Assembly: GCF_039830135.1 (NCBI RefSeq)
Contig: NZ_CP156081.1
Span: 1,102,001 to 1,166,000 of the forward strand
Length of the DNA: 64,000 nucleotides
Origin: Defluviimonas sp. SAOS-178_SWC
Lineage (GTDB): Bacteria > Pseudomonadota > Alphaproteobacteria > Rhodobacterales > Rhodobacteraceae
Direction of reading: 5' to 3'
Position numbers and translations under genes: made by a program. The number at the start of each line of letters is the position of its first letter. Position 1 is the stretch's first letter. This document shows positions 19,363 to 23,192 of the stretch, piece by piece. The notes beneath the pieces were generated by a model, which was not told where the DNA came from, did not search any database, and saw nothing but the letters and a program-made list of their open reading frames with translations.

Positions 19363-20060
19363 AACTCGGTGTCCCCTCCAAGGGCCGGCTGATGGACCAG
19401 ACCTTCGACTGGTTCGGCGCGCGCGGCGTCACGCTGCGGCGCACCGGGTCCGACCGCGAATATGCCGGGGCCGTCGATGGCGCCGACGGGCTTGAACTCG
19501 TCCTCCTCTCGGCCGGCGAAATTCCCCGCGAACTCGCTGCGGGGCGCATTCATCTTGGCGTCACCGGTTCCGACCTCGTCCGCGACAAGCTGGCCGACTG
19601 GGACCGGCAGGTCGCGGAACTCGCGCCGATGGGCTTTGGCCATGCTGACCTCATCATCGCCGTCCCCGCCGCCTGGCCCGACGTCGACACGCTCGACGAC
19701 CTCGACGCCGCCGCCTCTGCCTTCCGCCGCGCGCATGGCCACCGGCTGCGCATCGCGACGAAATACCACCGTCTGGTGCGTGACTTCCTGGCCGCGAACG
19801 GTGTCGCCGACTACCAGCTCGTCGACAGTCAGGGCGCGACCGAGGGCACGGTGAAGAACCTCACCGCCGAGGCCATCGCCGACATCACCTCGACCGGCGA
19901 GACGCTGCGCGCCAACCACCTGAAGATCCTGACCGACGGCCTCATCCACCAGAGCCAGGCGACGCTCTACGCCGCCCGCGCCGCCGACTGGGGCAACGGC
20001 GCCGAAACCGTACTTGCCGATCTGGCCGGGCGCTTGGGGCTCGACCCGGTCCGCGTCTGA
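19356..20060 (+). CDS. hisG: ATP phosphoribosyltransferase catalytic subunit, short form
   Basis: HisG catalyses the first, committed step of histidine synthesis: ATP plus PRPP to phosphoribosyl-ATP. At 234 residues it is the short form without the C-terminal ACT-like regulatory domain, which agrees with hisZ directly upstream. It begins LKLGVPSKGRLMDQT; the phosphoribosyl-binding region DSQGATEGTVKNLTAEAIAD and the end of the second lobe are intact. The start overlaps the hisZ stop by 7 bases. The rest of the his pathway is not in this window. Confidence 0.95.
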   Translation: MLKLGVPSKGRLMDQTFDWFGARGVTLRRTGSDREYAGAVDGADGLELVLLSAGEIPRELAAGRIHLGVTGSDLVRDKLADWDRQVAELAPMGFGHADLIIAVPAAWPDVDTLDDLDAAASAFRRAHGHRLRIATKYHRLVRDFLAANGVADYQLVDSQGATEGTVKNLTAEAIADITSTGETLRANHLKILTDGLIHQSQATLYAARAADWGNGAETVLADLAGRLGLDPVRV

Positions 20061-20145: not shown

Positions 20146-20571
20146 CAGCCCGATCTCGGCCAGCGCCAGCGCCATCTCCTCGGGCAGCGTACTGTCGGCG
20201 GCGCGGATCTGCGGCAGGTCGCGCGGGCTGTCCGCCGGATCGAGATAGCGCCAGCCCTGGAACGGCCGTCGCGCCGCCGCTTCGGTGCGGATCACCTCCG
20301 GCTCCATCACGATCCCGCAGCGGCGGATGCCATCGCCGCGATCCACCTCGTCGAGCCGCACGATCCGCTGGCGGCAGAGGATCACCCCCTTGATGACCCA
20401 GTAAAGTGATCCGCCCGCCAGCACCTCGGCCTCGCGCTTCGGCCACATCCGGGTGACGTGGCGGCGCTCTCCGGTAGGGTAGGGCGCGGGATGCGTGCGC
20501 TGCCAGTCGAGCAGATCCTCGACGGAATCCGCGCCGACGCAGAGCTTCAACAGGTTCACGAATCCGGCCAT
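20140..20571 (-). CDS. DUF1489 family protein
   Basis: A 143-residue protein matching DUF1489, a small family of unknown function common in Alphaproteobacteria. The typical N terminus is seen (VNLLKLCVGADSVEDLLDWQ) along with HVTRMWPKR and YWVIKG. Start M at 20571 was chosen because the family begins at this position; the 16 residues upstream in the same frame are unlike it. It is convergent with hisG and divergent from nrdJ. Confidence 0.85.
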   Translation of the reverse strand: MAGFVNLLKLCVGADSVEDLLDWQRTHPAPYPTGERRHVTRMWPKREAEVLAGGSLYWVIKGVILCRQRIVRLDEVDRGDGIRRCGIVMEPEVIRTEAAARRPFQGWRYLDPADSPRDLPQIRAADSTLPEEMALALAEIGLR

Positions 20572-20620
20572 CTTACCCCCAAGACCTTGCCATTCTAGCC
20601 GCCGTGACCCCGAGATCAAG

Positions 20621-20649
20621 TTGACCGGCGCGGCAGGGGGGCGTATCTT
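20621..20649 (+). promoter_or_regulatory. Sigma-70-like promoter of nrdJ
   Basis: TTGACC (20621-20626) and TATCTT (20644-20649) are separated by exactly 17 bases and lie 36 bases before the nrdJ start codon. No cobalamin riboswitch fits into the remaining leader. Confidence 0.6.
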
Positions 20650-20684
20650 GGCCGTCCTTCCCGAAGACCGAGGACCGCCTGCCG

Positions 20685-23192
20685 ATGAGCCGTTTCGCCG
20701 CCCCGATCGCCGAGCAAATCTGGGACATGAAGTATCGCTTCAAGTCGGCGGACGGCACACCCATCGACGGTACGGTCGAGGACAGCTGGCGCCGTATCGC
20801 CCGCGCCGTCGCCGTGGTCGAGAAGACGCCCCCCGAATGGGAGGATCGCTTCTACGCCGCTCTCGAGGATTTCCGGTTCCTCCCCGCCGGCCGGATCACC
20901 GCCGGCGCCGGCACCGGCCGGTCGGTGACGCTTTTCAACTGCTTCGTCATGGGCACGATCCCCGACAACATGGGCGGCATCTTCGACGCGCTGAAGGAAG
21001 CCGCGCTGACGATGCAGCAGGGCGGCGGCATCGGTTACGACTTCTCCACCATCCGTCCGCGCGGGGCGGAGGTGAAGGGCGTGGCCGCCGACGCCTCCGG
21101 TCCGCTCAGCTTCATGGATGTCTGGGACGCGATGTGCCGCACGATCATGTCGGCCGGCTCGCGGCGTGGCGCGATGATGGCGACGATACGCTGCGATCAC
21201 CCCGATGTCGAGGCCTTCATCGAGGCCAAGCAGGATGCCGCGCGGCTCAGGATGTTCAACCTCTCGGTTCTTGTCACCGATCCCTTCATGGCGGCGGTCA
21301 AGGCCGATGGCCCGTGGGAACTGGTCTTCGACGACAAGGTTTACAAGACCGTGCAGGCGCGCGACCTCTGGAACCGGATCATGCGCGCGACCTACGATTA
21401 CGCCGAGCCGGGCGTGATCTTCATCGACCGCATCAACGCCGCGAACAACCTCAACTATGTGGAGACCATCGCCGCCACCAATCCCTGCGGCGAACAGCCC
21501 CTGCCGCCCTATGGCGCCTGTCTTCTGGGCTCGGTCAACCTCGCCCGGCTGGTGACGGACCCGTTCGGCAACGGCGCCGGGCTTGACGAGGAGGCGCTGG
21601 ACGAGCTCACCCGTACCGCCGTGCGGATGATGGACAATGTCGTCGACGCCTCGCGCTTCCCGCTGCCGGAGCAGGAGGCGGAGGCACGGGCCAAGCGCCG
21701 CATCGGCCTCGGCGTGACCGGGCTTGCCGACGCGCTGCTGATGGTCGGGCTGCGCTACGGGTCGGAAGAGGCGGCCCGGCAGACTGAAGTATGGATGCAC
21801 AGGATCGCGCGGGCGGCCTACCTCGCCTCGGTGGAGCTTGCGAAGGAGAAGGGCGCGTTCCCCCTGTTCGACGCCGAGAAATACCTCGCCTCGGGCAACA
21901 TGAGGCACATGGATGCGGATGTGCGCGACGCGGTTCGAGAACATGGCATCCGCAACGCGCTGCTGACCTCGATCGCGCCGACGGGGACGATCTCGCTTTA
22001 CGCCGGCAACGTCTCCTCCGGGATCGAGCCGGTCTTCGCCTATGCCTACAAGCGCAAGGTGCTGCAAAAGGACGGCTCGCGGACCGAGGAAGAGGTGGTC
22101 GACTACGCCGTCCAGCTCTGGCGCGAACGCTTCGGCGACAGGCCGCTGCCCGAACATTTCGTCAACGCCCAGACCCTGCCGCCGCTCGACCATGTGCGGA
22201 TGCAGGCGGTGGCGCAGAAATGGGTGGATTCGTCGATCTCCAAGACCATCAACTGCCCCGAGGAGATCAGCTTCGAGGCCTTCAAGGACATCTACATGGC
22301 GGCCTGGGACCAGGGCTGCAAGGGCTGCACCACCTACCGCCCGAACGCGGTGACGGGGAGTGTGTTGAGTGTTGAACCGGAGAACAAAGAAGTAAGCGAC
22401 CCGCAAGCAGTTTCTCACCGTATTAAGGTGGCAATGGAGTCTGCGGATATATCTACTCAGCAGCAATTGGCTGATGCGGCAGGCTTGTCCAAATCCTATG
22501 TTAGTCAGCTGCTGTCTGGCTCTCGCGCTGTCAGTCGTGACTCGGTTGAGAGATTGGCGGCCGCTCTGAATGTAAGCCCAGCGTGGCTAATGTTTGGAGA
22601 CGGGACTGCCCCCGAAGTCCTCTCCAAGGACGGCGCCGAACCGCTCACCCCGCATGGCGACGTGATCTACCTTTCCGAACCCCTCGACCGGCCGCAATCG
22701 CTGGAAGGCGCGACCTACAAGCTCAAATGGCCCGACAGCGAACACGCGATCTACATCACGATCAACGACATTGTCCAAGGCGGCCACCGGCGGCCCTTCG
22801 AGGTCTTCATCAACTCCAAGAACATGGAGCATTTCGCCTGGACCGTCGCGCTGACGCGCATGATCTCGGCCGTGTTCCGCAGGGGCGGCGACGTGTCTTT
22901 CGTCGTCGAGGAGCTGAAGGCCGTCTTCGATCCGCGCGGCGGGGCGTGGATGCAGGGCCGCTACATTCCTTCCATCCTCGCGGCCATCGGCGGGGTGATC
23001 GAACGCCACATGATCGCCATCGGCTTTCTGGAAGGCGAGGGGCTCGGCCTCAAATCCGATCCCAAGGCGCAGGCGCTGGCGGTGGGCGACGCGCCGCGCG
23101 GACCGGCCTGCCCCTCCTGCGGGCAGTTCGGCATGCAGATGATCGAAGGCTGCATGACCTGCCCGTCCTGCGGCCATTCGAAATGCGGCTGA
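20685..23192 (+). CDS. nrdJ: Adenosylcobalamin-dependent (class II) ribonucleotide reductase with inserted XRE domain
   Basis: An 835-residue B12-dependent reductase that makes deoxyribonucleotides with or without oxygen. The radical-enzyme core is intact: Cys86 in FNCFVMG, the substrate-site motif NPCGEQ (Asn266, Cys268, Glu270), and PTGTISLYAGNVSSGIEP. The C terminus carries a zinc-ribbon-like region with CPSCG, CMTCPSCG and a final KCG (809-835). Between the barrel, which ends CKGCTTYRPNAVTG (about 558), and the C-terminal region resuming near GDVIYLSEPLDRP, residues about 559-641 are a Cro/CI-type helix-turn-helix domain instead of the usual short low-complexity linker. The frame is open throughout. 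The inserted piece has about 49% GC at third codon positions by my count, against 100% in the 33 codons just before it. Confidence 0.95.
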   Translation: MSRFAAPIAEQIWDMKYRFKSADGTPIDGTVEDSWRRIARAVAVVEKTPPEWEDRFYAALEDFRFLPAGRITAGAGTGRSVTLFNCFVMGTIPDNMGGIFDALKEAALTMQQGGGIGYDFSTIRPRGAEVKGVAADASGPLSFMDVWDAMCRTIMSAGSRRGAMMATIRCDHPDVEAFIEAKQDAARLRMFNLSVLVTDPFMAAVKADGPWELVFDDKVYKTVQARDLWNRIMRATYDYAEPGVIFIDRINAANNLNYVETIAATNPCGEQPLPPYGACLLGSVNLARLVTDPFGNGAGLDEEALDELTRTAVRMMDNVVDASRFPLPEQEAEARAKRRIGLGVTGLADALLMVGLRYGSEEAARQTEVWMHRIARAAYLASVELAKEKGAFPLFDAEKYLASGNMRHMDADVRDAVREHGIRNALLTSIAPTGTISLYAGNVSSGIEPVFAYAYKRKVLQKDGSRTEEEVVDYAVQLWRERFGDRPLPEHFVNAQTLPPLDHVRMQAVAQKWVDSSISKTINCPEEISFEAFKDIYMAAWDQGCKGCTTYRPNAVTGSVLSVEPENKEVSDPQAVSHRIKVAMESADISTQQQLADAAGLSKSYVSQLLSGSRAVSRDSVERLAAALNVSPAWLMFGDGTAPEVLSKDGAEPLTPHGDVIYLSEPLDRPQSLEGATYKLKWPDSEHAIYITINDIVQGGHRRPFEVFINSKNMEHFAWTVALTRMISAVFRRGGDVSFVVEELKAVFDPRGGAWMQGRYIPSILAAIGGVIERHMIAIGFLEGEGLGLKSDPKAQALAVGDAPRGPACPSCGQFGMQMIEGCMTCPSCGHSKCG
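22359..22607 (+). other. Foreign in-frame segment in nrdJ encoding an XRE/Cro-CI helix-turn-helix domain
   Basis: Residues 577-640 of the nrdJ product form a five-helix XRE domain: QQLADAAGLSKSYVSQLLSG (593-612) is the helix-turn-helix, and LAAALNVSPAWLMFGDG (624-640) is the ending typical of phage CI-like repressors before their S24 protease part. GC over 22381-22600 is about 52% by hand count, and codons such as AGA, CTA, ATA and GTA, nearly absent from flanking nrdJ, are used. No repressor protease domain, no stop codons and no obvious target-site duplication are visible. It looks like an acquired domain kept in frame; what DNA it might bind is unknown. Confidence 0.88.

Follow-up and report, generated by a model that had tools for sequence, protein, structure and literature searches.

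The window analyzed here is a 64,000-nucleotide stretch of the Defluviimonas sp. SAOS-178_SWC genome (contig NZ_CP156081.1, positions 1,102,001 to 1,166,000). It holds nrdJ, the gene for a class II, putatively adenosylcobalamin-dependent ribonucleotide reductase (RNR) with a helix-turn-helix (HTH) domain of phage-repressor type set into the linker between its catalytic barrel and its TSCPD domain. Comparison with relatives in the Rhodobacteraceae indicates that this linker is a slot in which one HTH cassette is exchanged for another. The gene begins with ATG and its frame is open from end to end, and judged by its sequence the product is an intact NrdJ_Z-type class II RNR, scoring 587.3 bits against NCBIfam TIGR02504 (cut-off, 399.95) and matching PF00317 at residues 8 to 79, PF02867 at residues 85 to 551 and the TSCPD family at residues 678 to 776 in Pfam. 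The open frame and the cysteines described in the earlier note on this sequence are borne out, with cysteines present in the barrel (86, 268, and 279) and in the tail (809, 812, 823, 826, 829, and 834). In a 50-sequence alignment the barrel cysteines are invariant and the tail cysteines nearly so (90% or more), and we take these sets to have catalytic and C-terminal redox roles, respectively. The catalytic part closes at a conserved TYRPNxVTGSVL motif, and the HTH enters after the conserved barrel end TYRPNAVTGSVL and before the TSCPD domain. Thermotoga maritima NrdJ (PDB 1XJE) is the best fold match to the structure model of the whole protein. An intein was considered and rejected, as the Pfam search of NrdJ gave no match to a splicing or other intein domain. 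No riboswitch or other known RNA reached Rfam gathering scores between positions 19500 and 24500.

The insert itself is a complete Cro/CI-type HTH, as the earlier note had read it. Pfam places HTH_3 at residues 591 to 635 (E = 2.3e-11; 44.0 bits against a gathering score of 23) and Phage_CI_repr at residues 580 to 641 (E = 5.3e-6). The same search found no match in NrdJ to the S24/oligomerization domain of CI-type repressors; here it is TSCPD that comes after the HTH. An AlphaFold model made with 50 sequences (mean predicted local distance difference test [pLDDT] of 80.7), which replaced a first model with a mean pLDDT of 46, has five helices at residues 576 to 637 and a pLDDT of 84 to 95 over residues 581 to 640. 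Low-confidence stretches (pLDDT below 50) at residues 564 to 571 and 641 to 666 flank these helices, and the HTH is predicted to be a separately folded domain on two flexible tethers. Its codons look foreign: GC content at third codon positions (GC3) is 49% over the 83 codons of positions 22359 to 22607, compared to 100% in the preceding 33 codons, a contrast that reproduces the earlier figures, and every other 83-codon window of nrdJ has a GC3 of at least 84%.

The earlier note treated the insertion as a single event, but inserts of this kind recur at one fixed position in many genomes. Among 296 Rhodobacteraceae genomes, 272 had an NrdJ match, and at least 36 of these carry an HTH-type insert in the same linker, a lower bound obtained by sequence reading from 34 rows spanning the query plus G221 and G029. 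A search of 22 genomes of the window's own genus gave 19 with a match at the cut-off. In 17 genomes the main copy's linker was readable, and of these 8 have an HTH-type insert and 9 a linker of 20 to 34 residues. The HTH-bearing proteins of the genus share 80 to 87% full-length identity with the window's NrdJ, and their eight cassettes represent seven types, one of which (71% identical between L010 and L012) is barely recognized by Pfam. Close relatives carry differing domains or none, rather than all having the same domain with native codon usage, the outcome that the earlier note had named as one that would refute it. Linkers span 88 to 134 residues in the HTH-bearing genome loci read and 9 to 43 residues in the HTH-free Rhodobacteraceae read. 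HTH_3 was detected at E ≤ 0.01 in 49 of 54 genome-derived HTH-bearing linkers; L010, L051, and L067, with weak HTH scores, are among the five others. The phage families phrog_4 and phrog_8 were each matched by 48 of the 54 cassettes. One protein of 926 residues (P0007) has a linker that reads as two differing HTH cassettes in tandem. In L069 (genome G029) and P0108, homology is lost after the HTH or just before TSCPD, and both look frame-disrupted or misassembled. The chimeric assembly that the earlier note had allowed for is unlikely and was rejected: the window belongs to a 4.17-Mb contig in a genome of two contigs, and this gene architecture recurs in many other genomes.

Exchange is clearest where nearly identical enzymes carry unrelated cassettes. 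The comparison set comprised 153 HTH-bearing sequences, including 120 database proteins, with near-duplicate genomes from two sources remaining in it; identities were computed without gaps, so that pairs differing in length received falsely low N-terminal identities and fell outside the bins. Nineteen listed pairs, some involving near-duplicates, have N-terminal parts at least 97% and C-terminal parts at least 95% identical with HTHs below 50%, such that backbones 97 to 99.8% identical carry cassettes just 24 to 44% alike. HTH identity was below 50% in 14 of the 52 pairs with N-terminal parts at least 98% identical and in 22 of the 38 pairs at 95 to 98%. Thus, P0002, P0008, and P0030 agree at 99.6 to 99.8% (N-terminal part) and 100% (C-terminal part), with HTHs 35 to 44% identical; P0022 and P0040, both labeled Ruegeria pomeroyi by their source, agree at 98.9% and 95.9%, with HTHs at 35%; and the HTHs of the exchange pair L038/P0039 are 25% identical. 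Further exchange pairs are P0024/P0034, P0020/P0061, and P0016/P0040. P0022, P0040, and P0016 are letter-identical from VSAGWLLFGDGEAPTVVAK through the linker end, which places one joint within the conserved final part of the HTH. Similar cassettes also occur on more divergent enzymes (P0030/P0012, cassettes 82% and N-terminal parts 87% identical; P0046/P0012, 85% and 84%). At the DNA level, five pairs had mostly 80 to 98% identity in the flanks and 32 to 63% within the slot, dropping at both slot edges. P0102 and P0113, identical throughout their N- and C-terminal parts, are distinguished within the HTH by five residues, two of which align with the helix 3 region. With differing domains at one site on near-identical flanks, the slot behaves as an exchangeable-domain locus.

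On a FastTree phylogeny of 243 backbones with the linker removed, 40 changes of HTH presence were counted, and shuffled labels gave a mean of 72 and a minimum of 63. For cassette family (49 families defined at 55% identity), the count was 88, and shuffling gave a mean of 100 and a minimum of 97. For the most part the cassette is uncoupled from its backbone, with some phylogenetic signal left. Composition deviates as it does in the window's nrdJ: GC3 of the HTH core is below that of the N-terminal part in 52 of 54 genomes, by at least 10 points in 48 (median difference, −26; for comparison, −5 in 88 HTH-free linkers). Six cassettes are not at least 10 points lower (L051, L052, L060, L062, L101, and L110), and all of these except L052 form one related group with cassettes 65 to 78% alike. 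This group has host-like GC3 and an acidic core (charge measured on L051 and L060), and DNA binding has possibly been lost in it. The ratio of nonsynonymous to synonymous substitution rates (dN/dS) was computed for the 16 closest pairs within cassette families; in the 11 that were unsaturated it was 0.12 to 0.29 for the HTH compared to 0.10 to 0.21 for the N-terminal part. In helix 3 of the main family, 27 of whose 38 representatives were read, position r4 is R in 26 of 27, r8 is W in 27 of 27 and r7 is N in 19 of 27, with r1 and r2 variable.

Kinship of the cassettes to phage CI-type repressors, as suggested in the earlier note, is supported by the phrog matches and by the window's own HTH, whose best phage match is 43.5% identical over 95% of its length, or 51% over 75%, with all 66 records below 60%. 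Matches in viral contigs were 33 to 50% identical, several in proteins resembling full repressors by eye, and a small regulator encoded on a viral contig shared 61% identity with another cassette type. In 120 genomes, the window cassette had 54 matches at E ≤ 0.001, 46 elsewhere and 8 in NrdJ, the latter being itself, the next three best and four more. Four other cassette types, each searched against 150 Rhodobacteraceae genomes at E cut-offs of 1e-5, 1e-8, 1e-8, and 1e-6, had 6 of 6, 4 of 4, 3 of 5, and 2 of 5 matches in NrdJ, respectively, the remainder being free-standing frames of 117 to 257 residues. On these matches, the cassettes form an NrdJ-resident pool with ties to XRE regulators of the ordinary kind. 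A recent origin by capture from phages is unsupported, for the window's cassette in particular, since the cassettes are not close to the phage repressors sampled and two types had all their above-cut-off matches in 150 genomes within NrdJ. Protein-database searches returned no close free-standing donors (53 and 14 candidates), though these rely on shared words and are insensitive for HTHs. Carriage of HTH-bearing nrdJ by phages was considered as a vehicle and rejected, as reading the NrdJ linkers of 4 of 171 matching phage records and of the 50 parsed among 53 viral-contig loci revealed no HTH cassette; among plasmids, none of the 40 matching records (12 listed) covered 80% of the query. Three viral-contig NrdJ proteins (L338, L356, and L357) have long linkers, up to ~170 residues, with other content and no Pfam match at E ≤ 0.1, so that in viruses, too, the linker accommodates insertions.

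Table 1. Features of nrdJ and its upstream region, in window coordinates
Feature	Position	Strand	Basis
Likely promoter TTGACC-17-TATCTT, common to HTH-free relatives	20621..20649	+	Sequence reading, upstream alignments
nrdJ, adenosylcobalamin-dependent ribonucleoside-diphosphate reductase, 835 residues, internal HTH	20685..23192	+	Open reading frame, Pfam/NCBIfam profiles
Catalytic part (residues 1-561), comprising an all-alpha N-terminal domain plus the barrel	20685..22367	+	Pfam, sequence reading, Thermotoga maritima NrdJ fold match
Low-GC3 stretch (49%), acquired piece as given in the earlier note	22359..22607	+	GC3
Linker slot, residues 562-662	22368..22670	+	Reading of linkers across genomes
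XRE/CI-type HTH cassette, five helices, residues 574-640	22404..22604	+	Pfam, structure model
TSCPD domain, residues 678-776	22716..23012	+	Pfam
Cysteine-rich C-terminal tail, C809-C834	23109..23186	+	Residue reading, alignment

Exchange at the slot is, on the sequence comparisons, well established: the site is fixed, its content is HTH, near-identical backbones carry differing cassettes and differing backbones carry related ones, cassette composition deviates, dN/dS is low in those cassette families that were measured, and the promoter does not covary. For its meaning, changing DNA specificity appears to be the best reading. We tentatively favor, with confidence that stays below the halfway mark, the view that the barrel-TSCPD linker of short NrdJ in the Rhodobacteraceae is an exchangeable XRE/CI-type DNA-specificity slot, most plausibly directed against mobile-element DNA. 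NrdJ is dimeric in the solved homologue, and each enzyme could therefore offer two HTHs together, in the manner of a phage repressor, and bind DNA with them. Strains would exchange cassettes by recombination in the conserved nrdJ flanks, and swaps would be retained for the benefit of recognizing new DNA, most plausibly the operators of incoming phages or other mobile elements. NrdJ might then act as a constitutive repressor-like or DNA-sensing protein. The DNA target would be the least secure step in this scheme. More doubtful is an extended version, in which dimeric NrdJ would be the scaffold of a hypervariable, horizontally exchanged repressor-type domain within an enzyme-borne immunity or DNA-sensing system, one that would renew its specificity through cassette swaps and tie deoxyribonucleoside triphosphate (dNTP) supply to recognition of foreign DNA.

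Several observations weigh against a changing DNA specificity. DNA binding by the HTH and its target remain putative, and many genomes manage without an HTH. The 120 database proteins, many of them from metagenomes, were selected for their similarity to the slot of the window's NrdJ, and 38 of the 52 pairs with N-terminal parts at least 98% identical keep their cassette at 50% or more (median, 94%; many near-duplicates). Acidic cassettes (core charge of −8 in L060, −6 in L067, and −4 in L051 and L061) may be unable to bind DNA. A single cassette group supplies nine of the 16 dN/dS pairs. The cassettes are not close to the phage repressors sampled (43.5% over 95% for the window's cassette and 61% at best for another type), and two types had every above-cut-off match in 150 genomes in NrdJ. 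Finally, the same genome encodes a second, long class II NrdJ (1232-residue open frame; G000:C2:1809586-1811418), and in a phylum-wide draw long NrdJ occurred in 13 of 13 Rhodobacteraceae genomes listed, 12 of which had short NrdJ too. Short NrdJ is probably not the sole RNR of the genome, and the constraint on it may be lower.

That second RNR would also suit a tolerated neutral insertion, in which the linker accepts any small folded domain and swaps are functionless. Linker length and content vary in phage and viral NrdJ relatives as well, the linker of L235, from outside the family, is a tandem repeat, and L069 and P0108 look disrupted after the HTH. Neutral swapping is nevertheless very unlikely in our judgment, as 49 of the 54 long inserts in family loci match HTH_3 and dN/dS is low where measurable, and so the neutral alternative left in the earlier note is disfavored. 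Binding of NrdJ to its own promoter, which the earlier note had proposed, would make it an autoregulator like the trigger enzymes, and control over NrdJ level would be useful. A −35/−10-like pair is indeed present just upstream (TTGACC at 20621 and TATCTT at 20644, 17-base spacer), ending 35 bases before the ATG and not 36 as first given. However, HTH-bearing L007 and HTH-free L018 share 97% of the backbone and 96% of 110 upstream bases. Across 16 genus genomes with L010 left out, median upstream similarity was 60 between HTH-bearing and HTH-free members, 64 among HTH-bearing members and 56 among HTH-free members. The core promoter is recognizable throughout a 14-genome alignment, under unrelated cassettes or none, except in L010, whose upstream region differs, and the promoter has just two inverted repeats, both long-spaced. 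Because the upstream sequence is common to relatives with and without the HTH, the nrdJ promoter is an improbable target, and we consider autoregulation highly improbable. Positions 20569 to 20650 are an upstream region common to nrdJ and a divergently oriented reading frame, with promoter-like sequences on both strands that are kept in most aligned genomes by eye. Of the earlier interpretation, the HTH, the enzyme parts, the foreign-looking GC3, and the phage kinship hold; the singular insertion and own-promoter binding find no support.

If the role is one of protein contact or structure, the HTH fold would not bind DNA but would offer a compact docking site to partners such as phage antirepressors or regulators. 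A profile search did find HTH folds in PDB enzymes, among them phosphonate dioxygenases and an epoxidase, and the acidic family whose GC3 is close to the host gene's (acidity measured on L051 and L060) would fit. Yet core charge over 106 representatives has a median of +2 and a lower quartile of 0, most cassettes match repressor families, and the main family conserves r4 and r8 of helix 3, and in most members the N at r7, while varying r1 and r2, all of which make docking quite unlikely. The main rival is a general tether to DNA or the replisome: the enzyme would be kept by its HTH in the vicinity of DNA, which would place dNTP production next to synthesis; any XRE domain would serve, and cassette identity would drift freely. 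The flexible stretches on either side of the HTH in the model and the nearly shuffled distribution of cassettes on the backbone tree (88 changes compared to 100) are consistent with this, as are linkers outside the Rhodobacteraceae. There, 131 genomes matched, and the one match spanning the slot is a tandem-repeat linker and not an HTH (L235, genome G556; a unit like ERSPDINLPAPLFEAPAPA repeated about four times in tandem, no domain). Reading found no HTH in 52 parsed loci, 46 of them from those 131 genomes, the remainder of which were judged by match end alone. These 52 were parsed from 56 linkers, ten of the loci having been picked mostly for long open frames. The motif [QE]x(1-2)LP[LF] occurs in 42 of the 52 parsed linkers, all from Alphaproteobacteria outside the Rhodobacteraceae (QAELPL-like in L239, L246, L248, and L149), compared to a shuffled mean of 0.25 and maximum of 2, a rough control since the loci are related. 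Within the Rhodobacteraceae set it is found in none of 89 HTH-free and none of 178 HTH-bearing linkers; with the looser pattern Q..?L[PALSDV][LF], 32 of the 52 outside linkers and 4 of the 178 match. We know of no case of clamp binding by NrdJ. The motif resembles a beta-sliding-clamp-binding motif such as the QFKLPL through which Caulobacter HdaA binds the beta-clamp, as described in PMC3836487, and may point to docking of class II RNR on the replisome. Against a tether stand the HTH-free Rhodobacteraceae, which have neither motif nor HTH, the acidity of some cassettes, and, in some lineages (backbones 99.8% identical), replacement that outpaces backbone change, a hint that change is advantageous. 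We regard the tether as unlikely.

In some lineages the putative DNA-recognition domain of this metabolic enzyme is replaced while the remainder stays near-identical, a sign of selection on DNA specificity where none was expected, and this suggests that NrdJ with its HTH acts on DNA in an undescribed way. It makes testable what the reductase binds on DNA and why the binding domain keeps changing. It also bears on the coupling of dNTP synthesis to phage defense or to the replication fork, the latter because related bacteria carry the clamp-binding-like motif in the same linker. The earlier note knew of no such fusion, and no description of an NrdJ-HTH fusion, of an RNR with a clamp motif or of an RNR at the replisome was found among the matches listed from the open-license literature.

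Among known systems, the enzyme is closest to class II NrdJ proteins (TIGR02504), sharing the barrel, cysteines, and fold of T. maritima NrdJ, but the sequence match to that chain stops at query residue 561 and the HTH lies beyond it. Inteins and other domain inserts or fusions occur in RNRs, whose genes tolerate added modules. An RNR with a Grx/ATP-cone fusion (PMC6187632) and an intein-bearing Aquifex RNR (PMC8772380) are reported; NrdJ, in contrast, has no intein match and keeps its HTH in frame within the enzyme. XRE/CI-type phage repressors (434, P22 C2, and S24-type CI) share the HTH fold and profile match, but in NrdJ the domain lacks the repressor C-terminal domain and is fused within an enzyme. 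PutA, BirA, and NadR are trigger enzymes or enzyme-HTH fusions, metabolic enzymes with a DNA-binding domain as NrdJ putatively is, but control of its own promoter is unsupported for NrdJ, and the HTH differs between near-identical NrdJ enzymes. In that respect, the slot is more like a polymorphic specificity locus such as HsdS, where target-recognition domains are exchanged between conserved flanks, except that here the host protein is an enzyme of nucleotide metabolism.

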